From the NCBI RefSeq assembly GCF_024500045.1, contig NZ_JTEO01000004.1, positions 248,001-312,000 of the forward strand: a stretch of 64,000 bases of DNA, read 5' to 3'. Shown here one piece after another: positions 11,363 through 20,267 of this stretch (position 1 is the first letter of the stretch; every line of letters starts with the position of its first letter). The stretch comes from Methanolobus chelungpuianus. Lineage in GTDB: Archaea; Halobacteriota; Methanosarcinia; Methanosarcinales; Methanosarcinaceae. The notes under the pieces were generated by a model. That model saw only the letters and a list, made by a program, of their open reading frames with translations, ran no database searches and was not told the DNA's origin. The translations under genes were made by a program, and so were the position numbers.

Positions 11363-12316
11363 ATGCCCATTAGTAAGATACTGAGGAAAAAACGTGCAGA
11401 CGAAGCACTGACCAAAGTGAAGGTCAAGGCAGGGACGATCAACAAGGCTCTCAACAAGCTGATACTTTTTTTCATGTTTGTGATCCTTCCCCTCCAGGCC
11501 GCCATAATAGCGATCAGGCAGGAATACATAGTTGTTCCCGAGCTGATCCTTGTCTTCCTGGAGGCGATTGTCACCATATTGGTGTCATATACCCTTGCAA
11601 CGGTCTTTATCAAGCTGACCATCTACCTGGTTCCCGACCGCTTTGATGGTGCAGGCACCCAGGAAGAGAAGATACTGTTCAGCAAGATCTATGTCGCTTT
11701 CATATACGCCCTGTCGACACTGGTGGTGTTCTGGCAGCTTGGCATAGATTCCAGGGACATGGCTATATTCCTTGGTCTTATTGCTACGGGTTTTGCCTTT
11801 GCCCTGAGGGATGTCATATTTTCCTACTTCGCATGGTTCATCCTTCTCACAAAGAAGCCCTTCAAGATAGGCGATTACATTGAGATCGGGGACGAGGAAG
11901 GCATGGTCAAGCATATCGGCCTGTTCTATGTGGTCGTGGACCACACTCCTTCCACATACGAGGACTTCCATAAGATACCCAACAAGGTATTCCTCGAGAA
12001 AACCATCACCAATCACGGTAAGGGCAAGTTCAGGCTGACCTTTGATTATTACCTGAAGGACATCCCTGCATATCTCGACGACCGCATAGAGAGCATCCGG
12101 GAGAAGGCAAGGTCCGCCGGCTACGGAGACGCCCGCTTCCACCTGGATTCCGACCACGACGGCCTGAAGCTCACCACAGAGTACAGGGCCACGTTCGAGT
12201 CAAGGGAAAAGACGAGACACAACCTGCTCTGCATTATCATGGAGGAGCTGGGCATCCTGGGAAGCAATGAAGCCCCGGTTGCACACGACCGCAAGAAGGC
12301 CAGGTATTCCCTTTGA
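11363..12316 (+). CDS. MscS-family mechanosensitive channel (copy 1)
   Basis: A 317-residue membrane protein. Hydrophobic helices occupy about residues 30-60, 65-90, 110-130 and 135-155. The pore/beta-domain junction GLIATGFAFALRDVIFSYFAWFILLTKKPFKIGDYIEIG is characteristic of MscS channels, which release solutes upon hypo-osmotic shock. The cytoplasmic domain follows (about 170-300). It is paralogous to the protein at 21951-22892, with the same pore-junction motif and the same IPNK/LPNK-MFLEK and TYEDF segments. It ends 75 bases before the tRNA-Gly gene and stands as a single gene. Confidence 0.9.
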   Translation: MPISKILRKKRADEALTKVKVKAGTINKALNKLILFFMFVILPLQAAIIAIRQEYIVVPELILVFLEAIVTILVSYTLATVFIKLTIYLVPDRFDGAGTQEEKILFSKIYVAFIYALSTLVVFWQLGIDSRDMAIFLGLIATGFAFALRDVIFSYFAWFILLTKKPFKIGDYIEIGDEEGMVKHIGLFYVVVDHTPSTYEDFHKIPNKVFLEKTITNHGKGKFRLTFDYYLKDIPAYLDDRIESIREKARSAGYGDARFHLDSDHDGLKLTTEYRATFESREKTRHNLLCIIMEELGILGSNEAPVAHDRKKARYSL

Positions 12317-12391: not shown

Positions 12392-12462
12392 GCGGCTGTG
12401 GTTTAGCGGTATGACAGAGGCTTCCCAAGCCTTTAACCCGGGTTCGAATCCCGGCAGCCGCA
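12392..12462 (+). tRNA. tRNA-Gly (anticodon CCC)
   Basis: A 71-nt cloverleaf. The acceptor stem GCGGCTG pairs with CAGCCGC, with discriminator A. The anticodon stem GAGGC/GCCTT encloses the loop TTCCCAA, giving anticodon CCC. The T stem CCGGG/CCCGG encloses TTCGAAT. There is no intron, and CCA is not encoded. It sits exactly at the border between GC-balanced sequence and the AT-rich cassette that follows. Confidence 0.93.
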
Positions 12463-12728
12463 TGCGGTTTTTGTATTGTTGGTTAGTTTCATAAAGGCCG
12501 TTGTTTTAAACGTTCATTTTTGATAGGTTCTGGTTTTTGATTGCACAAAAGCTGAGTAATGGTTATTTCGAGTTTTTTGTACTCTAGTCTAGTTAAAACT
12601 TTTCAATAAAAAATAGAAACATATATATTATTTAAGTATTAAATATCTTCTGTCAAGATAAAAGAGACAAATTAGTTAGATAATTAACTAGTCAGCAAAA
12701 AGTCATTAATAATATAGAAGGTCTAAGT
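12463..12728. other. AT-rich gene-free stretch after tRNA-Gly
   Basis: About 265 bases with a sudden drop in GC. It contains a near-palindrome (TTAGTTA-GATAAT-TAACTAG, near 12673-12694) and a TATA-like ATATATATTATTTAAG near 12620-12636 that could drive the cassette. I see no reading frame and no copy of the tRNA 3' end in it. Confidence 0.5.
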
Positions 12729-12833
12729 ATGAGTCCAACAGATAATGTTATTGAAGCTTTCCGTTTAATTTTCGTTCTAATGATATTAGGTTATATATTG
12801 TATGTAACTGCCCAAACACTGGAATATATATGA
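12729..12833 (+). CDS. 34-residue single-helix membrane microprotein
   Basis: A short frame from ATG 12729 to TGA 12833, preceded by GAAGGTC 5 bases before the ATG. The product is MSPTDNVIEAFRLI followed by a single hydrophobic helix (FVLMILGYILYVTAQ) and a short tail. It starts the AT-rich cassette and lies 13 bases upstream of the membrane-anchored nuclease-like gene. The two probably form an operon. The family is not recognised. The ribosome binding site and tight spacing are the reasons to believe it is real. Confidence 0.55.
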   Translation: MSPTDNVIEAFRLIFVLMILGYILYVTAQTLEYI

Positions 12834-12846
12834 TAAGGCGAATGCA

Positions 12847-13446
12847 ATGGATTTAACAAACATTGCATATCTTTTAGGTTTTGTTTTGCTTATCCTGATA
12901 GTTTCACTTTTTATAAAAGACGATTCAGCTCATTCTAAATCTCATACTAATCTAAAATTAAGAAAAACAAAGAGGACTTATAATAGCTTTTCTCAAAATG
13001 TTGAAAAATCAAAAATGGATACTAATTTTGAGAATATAATTAGTTTTTTAGAAAATGAAGTTAAACTTCGATATGGCAAAAACAAAATCGAAAAAGATTA
13101 TCAAGATGATTTGTTTCAAGCTTTTGGAGTTTTGAGAGAAAGACACGGATATGAAATAAAATATGAATCTAAAAATGGAAGACATAGGGTTGATTTTTCA
13201 GTTAATGATTCTATCGGAATTGAACTAAAAGTTCATAGAGGTGGTGCGCAAGTTAAGAAGGAGCTATTTAATCAACTCACTGACTATGCAAATTATTATC
13301 CGAAAATGATTGGTATTGTTGTTAACGTTAGCGATAAAGATGCTCCTAGTAAAATCCGAGATGACATTTATTGCAAGATGAAGCAACAAAATGTAATTTC
13401 ACAAAGTAATTATTATATTATTATATTGAACATATTAAGTAGGTGA
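12847..13446 (+). CDS. Membrane-anchored PD-(D/E)XK nuclease-like protein
   Basis: A 199-residue protein, AT-rich in codon use and unlike its neighbours. An N-terminal transmembrane helix (about 6-24, YLLGFVLLILIVSLFIK) is followed by a basic linker. Then comes a C-terminal domain (about 65-199) with the order RHRVDFSV-IGIELKVHRG, that is D-x(n)-ExK, as in PD-(D/E)XK nucleases. A following helix NQLTDYANYY with a buried strand IGIVVNV is in keeping. Similar domains occur in restriction and anti-phage proteins. The preceding microprotein and following basic protein appear linked to it. Function is inferred from one motif only. Confidence 0.6.
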   Translation: MDLTNIAYLLGFVLLILIVSLFIKDDSAHSKSHTNLKLRKTKRTYNSFSQNVEKSKMDTNFENIISFLENEVKLRYGKNKIEKDYQDDLFQAFGVLRERHGYEIKYESKNGRHRVDFSVNDSIGIELKVHRGGAQVKKELFNQLTDYANYYPKMIGIVVNVSDKDAPSKIRDDIYCKMKQQNVISQSNYYIIILNILSR

Positions 13447-13450
13447 CAAA

Positions 13451-13654
13451 ATGGCAAAGAAAAGTAATAAAGGGTTATTAGACATGAACCCCTTTGGGGA
13501 AACAAAAGGACCAAAGACCTCAAAAGGACAAATGAATAAAATGATGACAGGCGACGGCAGACGAAATTTCGAAAATTTGTCTTTTGATGATAAAATTAGT
13601 TGTATAGCAGGTTTGGGTGTATCAAAGAAGAAACAGACTAAAAAGGGTAAATAA
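13451..13654 (+). CDS. 67-residue basic hypothetical protein
   Basis: Starts 4 bases after the nuclease-like gene with GGTGAC 9 bases before the ATG. The product is lysine-rich at both ends (MAKKSNKG..., ...SKKKQTKKGK) with a central FENLSFDDKISCIAGLGV segment. No domain is recognised. Tight linkage and shared AT-rich composition make it part of the same cassette. A nucleic acid-binding partner is conceivable from charge only. Confidence 0.55.
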   Translation: MAKKSNKGLLDMNPFGETKGPKTSKGQMNKMMTGDGRRNFENLSFDDKISCIAGLGVSKKKQTKKGK

Positions 13655-13855
13655 CATTTTCACTTTTTATAATCCCTCTACGTTTCCAATTTTTCCATTA
13701 CATAAGCGTTCAGGTTAAAAGGCTTATCAGCTTTTGTATTTTGCTTCATCACTCGCTACTTCCATTCAACTCTCTCTTCAACTCCCATCATGACCACCAA
13801 AAATGATATATGTTAATTTATTACATTTATTGTAATCACTGGAAATCGCGTAAAT
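13655..13855. other. Gene-free right border of the AT-rich cassette
   Basis: About 200 AT-rich bases with TTTTTATAAT and several T-runs. No ORF, tRNA-like fragment or integrase site is visible. The composition returns to that of the host genome at about 13860. Confidence 0.4.
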
Positions 13856-14356
13856 GTGGTTATGATGAGGACTGCAAAAAAGGAATTTGAGAATCTGGTG
13901 TATCAGGGGATAAAGTCCCAGGGATTTGACGAATTGTCTTCCAGGCTGGTCGCAATCCTGTATTCTGAGCCGGGCCCGGTGACACTGGAAGAGCTTTCTG
14001 TACTTACGGGATATAGTTTTTCGGCAGTCAGTGCAACAATGAAACTGCTCAGCGGCATAAAACTCGTGGAGAAAACAAAGAAGCCCGGTTCAAAGAAGCT
14101 CTACTTCTCAGTTCAGAGGAATATGCTGACGCTGACCATTGCTGCAATACGGACCAAAAGTGAATTCATGGTAGCCCCTGCGCTGAACGACCTTCCCGGC
14201 ATAATTGAAAAATGCAGGAACAGCAAAACTGAAGGTTCCGAAAGGACACTCAGGGTAATAGAACAATATTACCGGCAAATGGTTGCACTGGATCTGATTT
14301 TTAAAAACCTGATCGAGTTTACGGAAAAAATACAAAAAGAGATGATCACGGAATGA
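13856..14356 (+). CDS. MarR/GbsR-like winged-helix transcriptional regulator
   Basis: A 166-residue protein. Residues about 25-85 form a winged helix (LVAILYSEPGPVTLEELSVLTGYSFSAVSATMKLL...KLVEKTKKPGSKKLYF), as in the MarR/GbsR group. The C-terminal half is helical and probably dimerises. Start choice lies between GTG 13856 and ATG 13862/13865. The stop overlaps the next ATG by 4 bases (ATGA), so the regulator is translationally coupled to the surface protein and ABC exporter genes. It probably regulates them, perhaps in response to membrane or osmotic stress (inference). Confidence 0.8.
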   Translation: MVMMRTAKKEFENLVYQGIKSQGFDELSSRLVAILYSEPGPVTLEELSVLTGYSFSAVSATMKLLSGIKLVEKTKKPGSKKLYFSVQRNMLTLTIAAIRTKSEFMVAPALNDLPGIIEKCRNSKTEGSERTLRVIEQYYRQMVALDLIFKNLIEFTEKIQKEMITE

Positions 14357-19256: not shown

Positions 19257-20267
19257 GTGGTGATATATTTGACTATAAGGGACAATGTTAGGATCACAGA
19301 GAACGAGGCAAGAGTGCGGCAAAACCTGCATTCCAATGGCAGGGCTGCTCAGCAGAAAAGTTCGATATTGTTTAATAACAGCCCTATAACGGAAGCCAGC
19401 CCTGTCGACTTCGATGAGCGGATATCAAAGCATGAGGGCGGTGTTATGGCCGTGGCAAGCAGGGAGGTCGTGACCATGCCTCCTACGACCAGCATCATAA
19501 ACGCCATCAAGGCCATGACAGGTAACGGCTTCCGGCGGATCCCGGTGGCAGATGCCGGCACGAACAGGCTGGAAGGTATTGTCACATCAGTAGACATCAT
19601 CGATTTCCTGGGAGGCGGCAGCAAGAACCTGCTCGTGGAAGAGCGCCATCATGGAAACCTGTTGTCTGCTATCAATTCTCCTGTGCGGGAGATCATGCAG
19701 GAGGATGTCGTCAGCATAAGGGATAATGCTGGCATTGATGATGCCATACAGACCATGCTTGACAATAACACAAGCGGGCTACCGATAGTCGACAGTGAGG
19801 GCAGGGTTGAGGCCATCTGTACTGAAAAGGACCTGATAAGGTTTGCAGCAAGCATCGCTTCCAGCAAGCCTGTGTCGCAATACATGACCCGGAAGGTCAG
19901 GACCACATCTCCTGACACCACCATCGGCGAAGCAGCAAGGATAATGATCGACAACGGCTTCAGAAGGATCCCCATAGTCAATAACGGGCATGTGGCGGGC
20001 ATAGTCACTGCCTCTGACATCATGCATTACCTGGGTAAAGGCAGCGCCTTTGAAAAGCTTATTACCGGCAACATCCATGAAGCATTCGATGAACCTGTAC
20101 TTCCCCTTATATCAAAGGACACAGTAAAGATAAGCCCGGAAACGGATATGGGCGAAGCAGCACGGATCATGGCAGAGAACAATATCGGTTCGCTGCCCGT
20201 AATGGAAGGCGACTACCTCGCCGGTATAATAACCGAAAGGGATTTCCTCAGGGCCATATCGGAATGA
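19257..20267 (+). CDS. Four-CBS-domain protein (copy 2)
   Basis: A 336-residue protein. The first 60 residues are polar and unassigned. Four CBS repeats follow (about 68-120, 145-200, 207-262 and 280-336), with repeated GFRRIPV and GIVTxxDI elements. As with copy 1, ligand and target are unknown; adenylates are usual. The start is uncertain: GTG 19257 opens the frame, while TTG 19269 has GGTGAT 6 bases ahead. A TATA-like TTTTTAAAG lies near 19226-19234. The two CBS genes are adjacent but separated by 100 bases and seem to have separate promoters. Confidence 0.85.
   Translation: MVIYLTIRDNVRITENEARVRQNLHSNGRAAQQKSSILFNNSPITEASPVDFDERISKHEGGVMAVASREVVTMPPTTSIINAIKAMTGNGFRRIPVADAGTNRLEGIVTSVDIIDFLGGGSKNLLVEERHHGNLLSAINSPVREIMQEDVVSIRDNAGIDDAIQTMLDNNTSGLPIVDSEGRVEAICTEKDLIRFAASIASSKPVSQYMTRKVRTTSPDTTIGEAARIMIDNGFRRIPIVNNGHVAGIVTASDIMHYLGKGSAFEKLITGNIHEAFDEPVLPLISKDTVKISPETDMGEAARIMAENNIGSLPVMEGDYLAGIITERDFLRAISE

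Follow-up and report, generated by a model that had tools for sequence, protein, structure and literature searches.

A foreign three-gene cassette of an archaeal genome encoding a predicted membrane-anchored PD-(D/E)XK nuclease and a TGDGR microprotein

Defence by a membrane-held nuclease is newly established in bacteria with the description of SNIPE (2026). SNIPE is a membrane-bound anti-phage nuclease of the GIY-YIG/DUF4041 type with a single N-terminal transmembrane (TM) helix and a cytoplasmic nuclease; it is toxic once the TM helix is deleted, and it cleaves the DNA of a phage while this is being injected (PMC13190303). The locus presented here was found in a window of 64 kb, meaning the whole stretch of DNA that was analysed (G000:C4:248001-312000), which belongs to the 2.6-Mb genome of a methanogenic archaeon, taken to be of the genus Methanolobus. 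Like SNIPE, the nuclease of this locus is predicted to face the cytoplasm, most members of its family have one or two TM helices at the N terminus, and it combines a variable N-terminal region with a patchy distribution. Unlike SNIPE, it has the PDDEXK fold, contains neither GIY-YIG nor DUF4041 in a Pfam scan and is much smaller; its helices are split over two genes, an extra microprotein with the motif TGDGR is encoded beside it, and the system is archaeal. SNIPE is the nearest functional precedent, but the cassette is not SNIPE itself.

Other described proteins resemble single parts of the cassette. The nuclease core is like that of the families PDDEXK_3 (PF13366) and TIGR04256 (GxxExxY), to which the cassette adds a membrane module. 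The type II restriction endonucleases BstYI, BamHI and OkrAI, and also Can2, are neighbours in fold; unlike these enzymes, the cassette has no methyltransferase partner or CARF domain and its nuclease has a predicted membrane anchor. A similar arrangement is found in archaeal pairs in which a member of the same microprotein family stands beside a small nuclease gene. The nuclease of these pairs is HNH instead of PDDEXK, and most of the HNH partners show no evident membrane anchor.

Layout and foreign origin of the cassette

The features of the locus are as follows.

11363-12316, plus strand: gene for an MscS-type channel, upstream flank (Pfam MS_channel_2nd, E 3e-13); kept at the site in relatives
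12392-12462, plus strand: tRNA-Gly(CCC), called by ARAGORN; upstream neighbour of the cassette, intact, without a duplicate
about 12498-13777, no strand assigned: foreign segment, present in the window genome and missing from its nearest relative G023, delimited by breaks in flank homology and a GC content of 29.6%
12717-12722, plus strand: SD-like GAAGGT 5' of the p34 gene, seen in the sequence
12729-12833, plus strand: gene for p34, a 34-aa single-TM peptide; G001, G008, G143 and L058 have homologs directly 5' of their nuclease genes
12835-12840, plus strand: SD-like AAGGCG 5' of the nuclease gene, seen in the sequence
12847-13446, plus strand: gene for the putative membrane-anchored PD-(D/E)XK nuclease, 199 aa, assigned by PDDEXK_3 match, alignment and predicted structure
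13441-13446, plus strand: SD AGGTGA 5' of the basic protein gene, seen in the sequence; it overlaps the nuclease stop codon
13451-13654, plus strand: gene for a basic microprotein of the TGDGR family, 67 aa, assigned by alignments and genome profile searches
13856-14356, plus strand: gene for a winged-helix regulator (MarR-like, weak), downstream flank; kept at the site in relatives

The GC content of positions 12463-13855 is 29.6%, compared with 50.0% for the whole window, which makes this essentially the lowest-GC 1.4-kb stretch of the 64 kb. GC3 is 0.19-0.34 for the three cassette genes, whereas their flanking neighbours have values of 0.52-0.69. The genes are separated by only 13 nt (p34 to nuclease) and 4 nt (nuclease to basic protein), and an SD-like motif stands at each of the three starts. 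The overlap of the last of these motifs with the nuclease stop codon suggests that the basic protein is translationally coupled to the nuclease. A coding-type, synonymous-biased substitution pattern among the cassette homologs supports their translation. The earlier note, made from the sequence alone, had described an AT-rich cassette of three tightly spaced genes after tRNA-Gly, with no integrase and no direct repeat of the tRNA end. The fall in GC, the reading frames and the tRNA call agree with this description, and neither integrase nor repeat was found on re-checking. The AT-rich stretch does follow the tRNA, but the foreign bounds are refined to about 12,498-13,777 and the tRNA itself lies outside.

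A comparison with the same tRNA-Gly locus in related genomes gave a pattern of presence and absence. The nearest relative found, G023, with 92% identity in the regulator and about 96% in the MscS channel, has the same neighbours but just 353 bp from tRNA to regulator. The flank homology of the two genomes stops at 12,497 (94% identity) and restarts at 13,778 (88%); in place of 12,498-13,777, an insert of only 1.3 kb, G023 has 258 bp of unrelated sequence. Other cargo was located at the same site in other relatives: a 139-aa lipoprotein in G015 and G026, a 284-aa protein on the opposite strand in G021, and in G010 an unrelated TM-anchored protein with a D..ECK motif (ECKYR). The last of these gives only sub-threshold matches to PDDEXK_11/YqaJ, and its reading as a PDDEXK-like membrane-anchored nuclease is our own putative assignment. 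Its gene (L023:377-1003) is AT-rich, and the frame is open at the 5' side into more hydrophobic sequence without a common start codon.

The interval from tRNA-Gly to the regulator is a variable chromosomal spot, and the cassette is recently acquired foreign DNA, a foreign origin being what the earlier note had proposed; it is probably exchanged horizontally. The distribution of the nuclease family is patchy: homologs turned up in 5 of the 14 genera of the taxonomic family, with 13 positive genomes among 112, and only 5 of the 27 genomes of the genus carry it. Conservation in all related species, which the earlier note had named as evidence against its reading, was thus not seen. The suggestion that the tRNA 3' end served as the insertion site was not borne out. 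The homology to G023, G015 and G010 runs at least 35 bp beyond the tRNA end, no att-like repeat (10 nt or longer) of tRNA parts occurs downstream to position 20,000, no integrase gene lies within the segment, and the window contains no integrase or replication gene. The intact tRNA flank and the lack of an att repeat indicate that integration into the tRNA end is not the mechanism, and it was rejected.

The nuclease and its membrane module

The nuclease consists of a TM helix (residues 3-22), a disordered linker (24-53) and the nuclease domain (56-199). The residues Asp116, Glu126, Lys128, Gln143 and Tyr147, forming the motifs D..ExK and QxxxY, are invariant in all 14 aligned homologs; a loss of ExK, the other result that the earlier note would have counted against itself, did not occur. 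PDDEXK_3 (PF13366) was matched by all six members scanned, with a best E of 1.5e-6, although the protein of the window itself falls under both curated cut-offs (20.4 against 22 bits for PDDEXK_3, 21.3 against 35 bits for TIGR04256). The core of the AF2 model is confident, with pLDDT of about 80-95. Its best PDB neighbours, compared over 109-131 residues, are BstYI (Z 9.2), BamHI (8.8), OkrAI (8.4) and Can2 (8.4), and all of the top neighbours are PDDEXK enzymes; the matches in BFVD are scattered PDDEXK-like proteins and are uninformative. The model and the alignment together point clearly to a PD-(D/E)XK fold with conserved catalytic residues, and we infer that the enzyme is a DNase. The nuclease-like domain on an N-terminal helix that the earlier note had read from the sequence is upheld by these matches, by the fold neighbours and by the TM helix.

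A peptide of the p34 type is encoded directly 5' of the nuclease at five loci (the window, G001, G008, L058 and G143), so that the link of a small membrane peptide to the nuclease, also part of the earlier reading, recurs. The p34 of the window scores 7.7-12 SD above region-preserving shuffles against the other four. The nuclease has a single TM helix at all five loci with p34; nine homologs lack p34, and by hydropathy seven of these have two TM helices. The exceptions are two homologs, of the G030 and L066 type, with one TM helix and no p34. In the G030-type pair a protein of 188-189 aa is encoded next, which to us looks multi-TM. The model of the G012 homolog has two N-terminal helices and the same core as the nuclease of the window.

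A segment rich in Lys and Arg follows the last TM helix in 14 of 14 homologs, as judged by hydropathy and charge bias. This positive charge leads to the prediction that the nuclease faces the cytoplasm. Between p34 and the first TM helix of the fused homologs, no homology was detectable (hhalign probability 1.8), and the equivalence of the two helices is therefore topological only. A SecE-like match of p34 (E 0.07) was far below the cut-off and was dismissed. In L010 (7154-7363, Methanolobus psychrotolerans) and L058 (5674-5871, a Methanococcoides MAG), a gene for a small CxxCxGxG zinc-finger protein (DnaJ-like) precedes p34 and the nuclease and stands instead of the TGDGR gene. Two distant relatives of the nuclease, in L078 and L081, have a hydrophobic C-terminal tail in place of the N-terminal anchor.

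Homologs of the nuclease occur in Methanolobus, Methanococcoides, Methanohalobium and other Methanosarcinaceae, and those of the Methanococcoides type have a single conserved chromosomal place. At the sensitivity used, no relatives were found in phages, plasmids or IMG/VR viral contigs. The G012 homolog lies near HsdM/HsdS, and the L058 and G030 homologs lie near phage-type integrases, in L058 also near a TOTE-type primase/helicase; only one or two loci are near known defence genes. None of the three cassette proteins matched a PADLOC-DB 2.0.0 model at E up to 1, by which a defence system known to PADLOC was ruled out. No sensor or DNA-recognition domain was seen in the cassette.

The TGDGR microprotein family and its neighbours

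Of the three cassette products, the basic protein has the widest conservation, a point that the earlier note had missed. Profile searches and alignments give a core, PKTxxGxxxxMxTGDGR, that is conserved across distant archaea. No family of Pfam, NCBIfam or PADLOC covers it, and no relatives were found in phages or plasmids. Weak PHROG matches (E 0.039 or worse) were not relied on. TGDGR is a new archaeal microprotein family; in a literature search of incomplete coverage, no paper naming the motif or the cassette was found.

In G001 and G143 the nuclease gene has a TGDGR gene beside it, and the complete three-gene cassette of the window is present in the second of these, which belongs to another genus. 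The search for nuclease homologs with their flanking small genes thus finds both p34 and TGDGR beside the nuclease again, in other genera too. A protein of 94 aa in G143 (L074:2099-2383) has the TGDGR motif region doubled, with TGKGNRN as the second copy.

In total 21 TGDGR loci were counted, excluding weak matches in G333, G236 and G490 that lie inside long or unconvincing frames. Eight are adjacent to a PDDEXK gene (G000, G001, G143, G295, G113 twice, G146 and G503); the nuclease frame is interrupted at one of the two G113 loci, and the distant PDDEXK neighbours were assigned by nuclease-family profile matches, those of G503 and G146 by motif and layout. Another eight are adjacent to an HNH gene (G163, G300, G273, G133, G398, G116, G469 and G325, the last divergent), which was assigned by Pfam, in some cases below the cut-off. 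YdjM-type membrane proteins are the neighbours in G307 and G446, no such neighbour was found in G025 and G460, and the locus of G478 lies at a contig end. Genes for HNH proteins are rare in the eight HNH-bearing genomes, with 17 matches in about 18 Mb, of which 8 adjoin TGDGR; the probability of this adjacency by chance is therefore negligible, for genomes that were picked after the adjacency was seen.

The order of the two genes varies, TGDGR being located before the nuclease, after it or divergent from it. TGDGR is absent from the nuclease loci of the Methanococcoides type and stands alone in G025, which indicates that the microprotein is not obligatory. Several of the HNH partners at L116, L117, L118, L119, L120, L127 and L098 share a Lys-rich tail with an acidic-Trp end (DDDWSMW, DDFWSML, DDDPWWI). 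At L124:1465-2402 and L100:1492-2634, genes for YdjM-family inner-membrane proteins (PF04307, E 5e-18 and 8e-17) stand beside weaker TGDGR-like ORFs.

Proposed working and its alternatives

The arrangement described above allows us to propose that the cassette is an accessory module, exchanged horizontally at a variable chromosomal site, in which a small PD-(D/E)XK DNase would be held on the cytoplasmic side by a two-helix module made of its own TM helix and p34. In other lineages both helices lie within one chain. The most likely binding partner of the TGDGR microprotein is the nuclease or the DNA of the nuclease, and the microprotein could dock, activate or restrain the enzyme. Self and non-self would be told apart by location: the anchor would keep the enzyme off the nucleoid, and the anchored enzyme would cut viral or plasmid DNA entering through the membrane, as in SNIPE. 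That the parts bind one another, what the microprotein does and that the cassette serves in defence are what we infer here; the anti-phage or toxin role suggested by the earlier note has the same standing. That the cassette holds a DNase at the inner membrane face against incoming DNA in a SNIPE-like manner has, in our estimate, an even chance of being correct.

The main rivals are a toxin-antitoxin pair and a cargo nuclease of a mobile element. In a toxin-antitoxin or abortive infection system, the nuclease would be a toxin and TGDGR (or p34) the antitoxin, with release upon infection or plasmid loss. The tight and apparently coupled operon of two or three genes would fit this, as would the variable site and a small basic partner beside varied nucleases, and the solitary TGDGR of G025 could be an orphan antitoxin. 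However, several nuclease homologs have neither a TGDGR partner nor p34, the gene order is not fixed, and a constant membrane anchor would be unusual for a cytoplasmic DNase toxin, so that we regard this explanation as unlikely, though to be taken seriously. A nuclease carried by a mobile element could aid its movement or replication, or could exclude rival elements. An AT-rich, patchy cassette is consistent with such cargo, as are the phage-type integrases near the L058 and G030 genes, the TOTE-type primase/helicase of L058 and the resemblance of the HNH partners to phage HNH families. It is nevertheless a distinctly unlikely origin of the function, since the insert of the window measures only 1.3 kb and the window is without integrase or replication genes, the Methanococcoides type keeps to one conserved chromosomal place, and the viral contigs, phages and plasmids searched contain no relatives.

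The membrane location and the PDDEXK fold would also be compatible with a housekeeping enzyme, for example one for the turnover of imported DNA. This is improbable in view of the patchy distribution, the empty site in the nearest relative and the swapped cargo. The small ORFs, given their shortness and the AT-rich DNA around them, could be frames that arose by chance; p34 and TGDGR nevertheless recur beside the nuclease in other genera, change in a synonymous-biased way and score far above shuffled sequences, which leaves hardly any room for chance frames.

If the proposal of a nuclease guarding the membrane is true, it would describe an independently built archaeal version of this kind of defence, distinct in its fold and in an anchor whose two helices are split. 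What appears to be new is the conserved linkage, namely a split two-helix anchor and an unrecognised microprotein associated with unrelated nucleases across archaea. The conservation of the partner proteins across archaea and beside unrelated nucleases points to small nuclease modules, probably serving defence, as a family that has gone unrecognised. More tentatively, and in our estimate less likely than not, TGDGR may mark an unrecognised class of modular archaeal systems in which a tiny adaptor is combined with interchangeable nucleases, either membrane-anchored PDDEXK or HNH (perhaps also with YdjM), and in which the cutting of invading DNA would depend on location or on some other condition. 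If the microprotein does control these nucleases, a compact regulatory adaptor would be revealed, of a kind that annotation misses because the genes are only 40-70 codons long. In any case, the motif is a simple search handle, which took the search from the cassette to pairs with HNH genes in several further families of archaea. G300, from another archaeal family, has an apparent operon (L087:1284-2769) in which an HNH nuclease gene is followed by genes for a PDDEXK-type protein and for a small hydrophobic TM protein of 49 aa.
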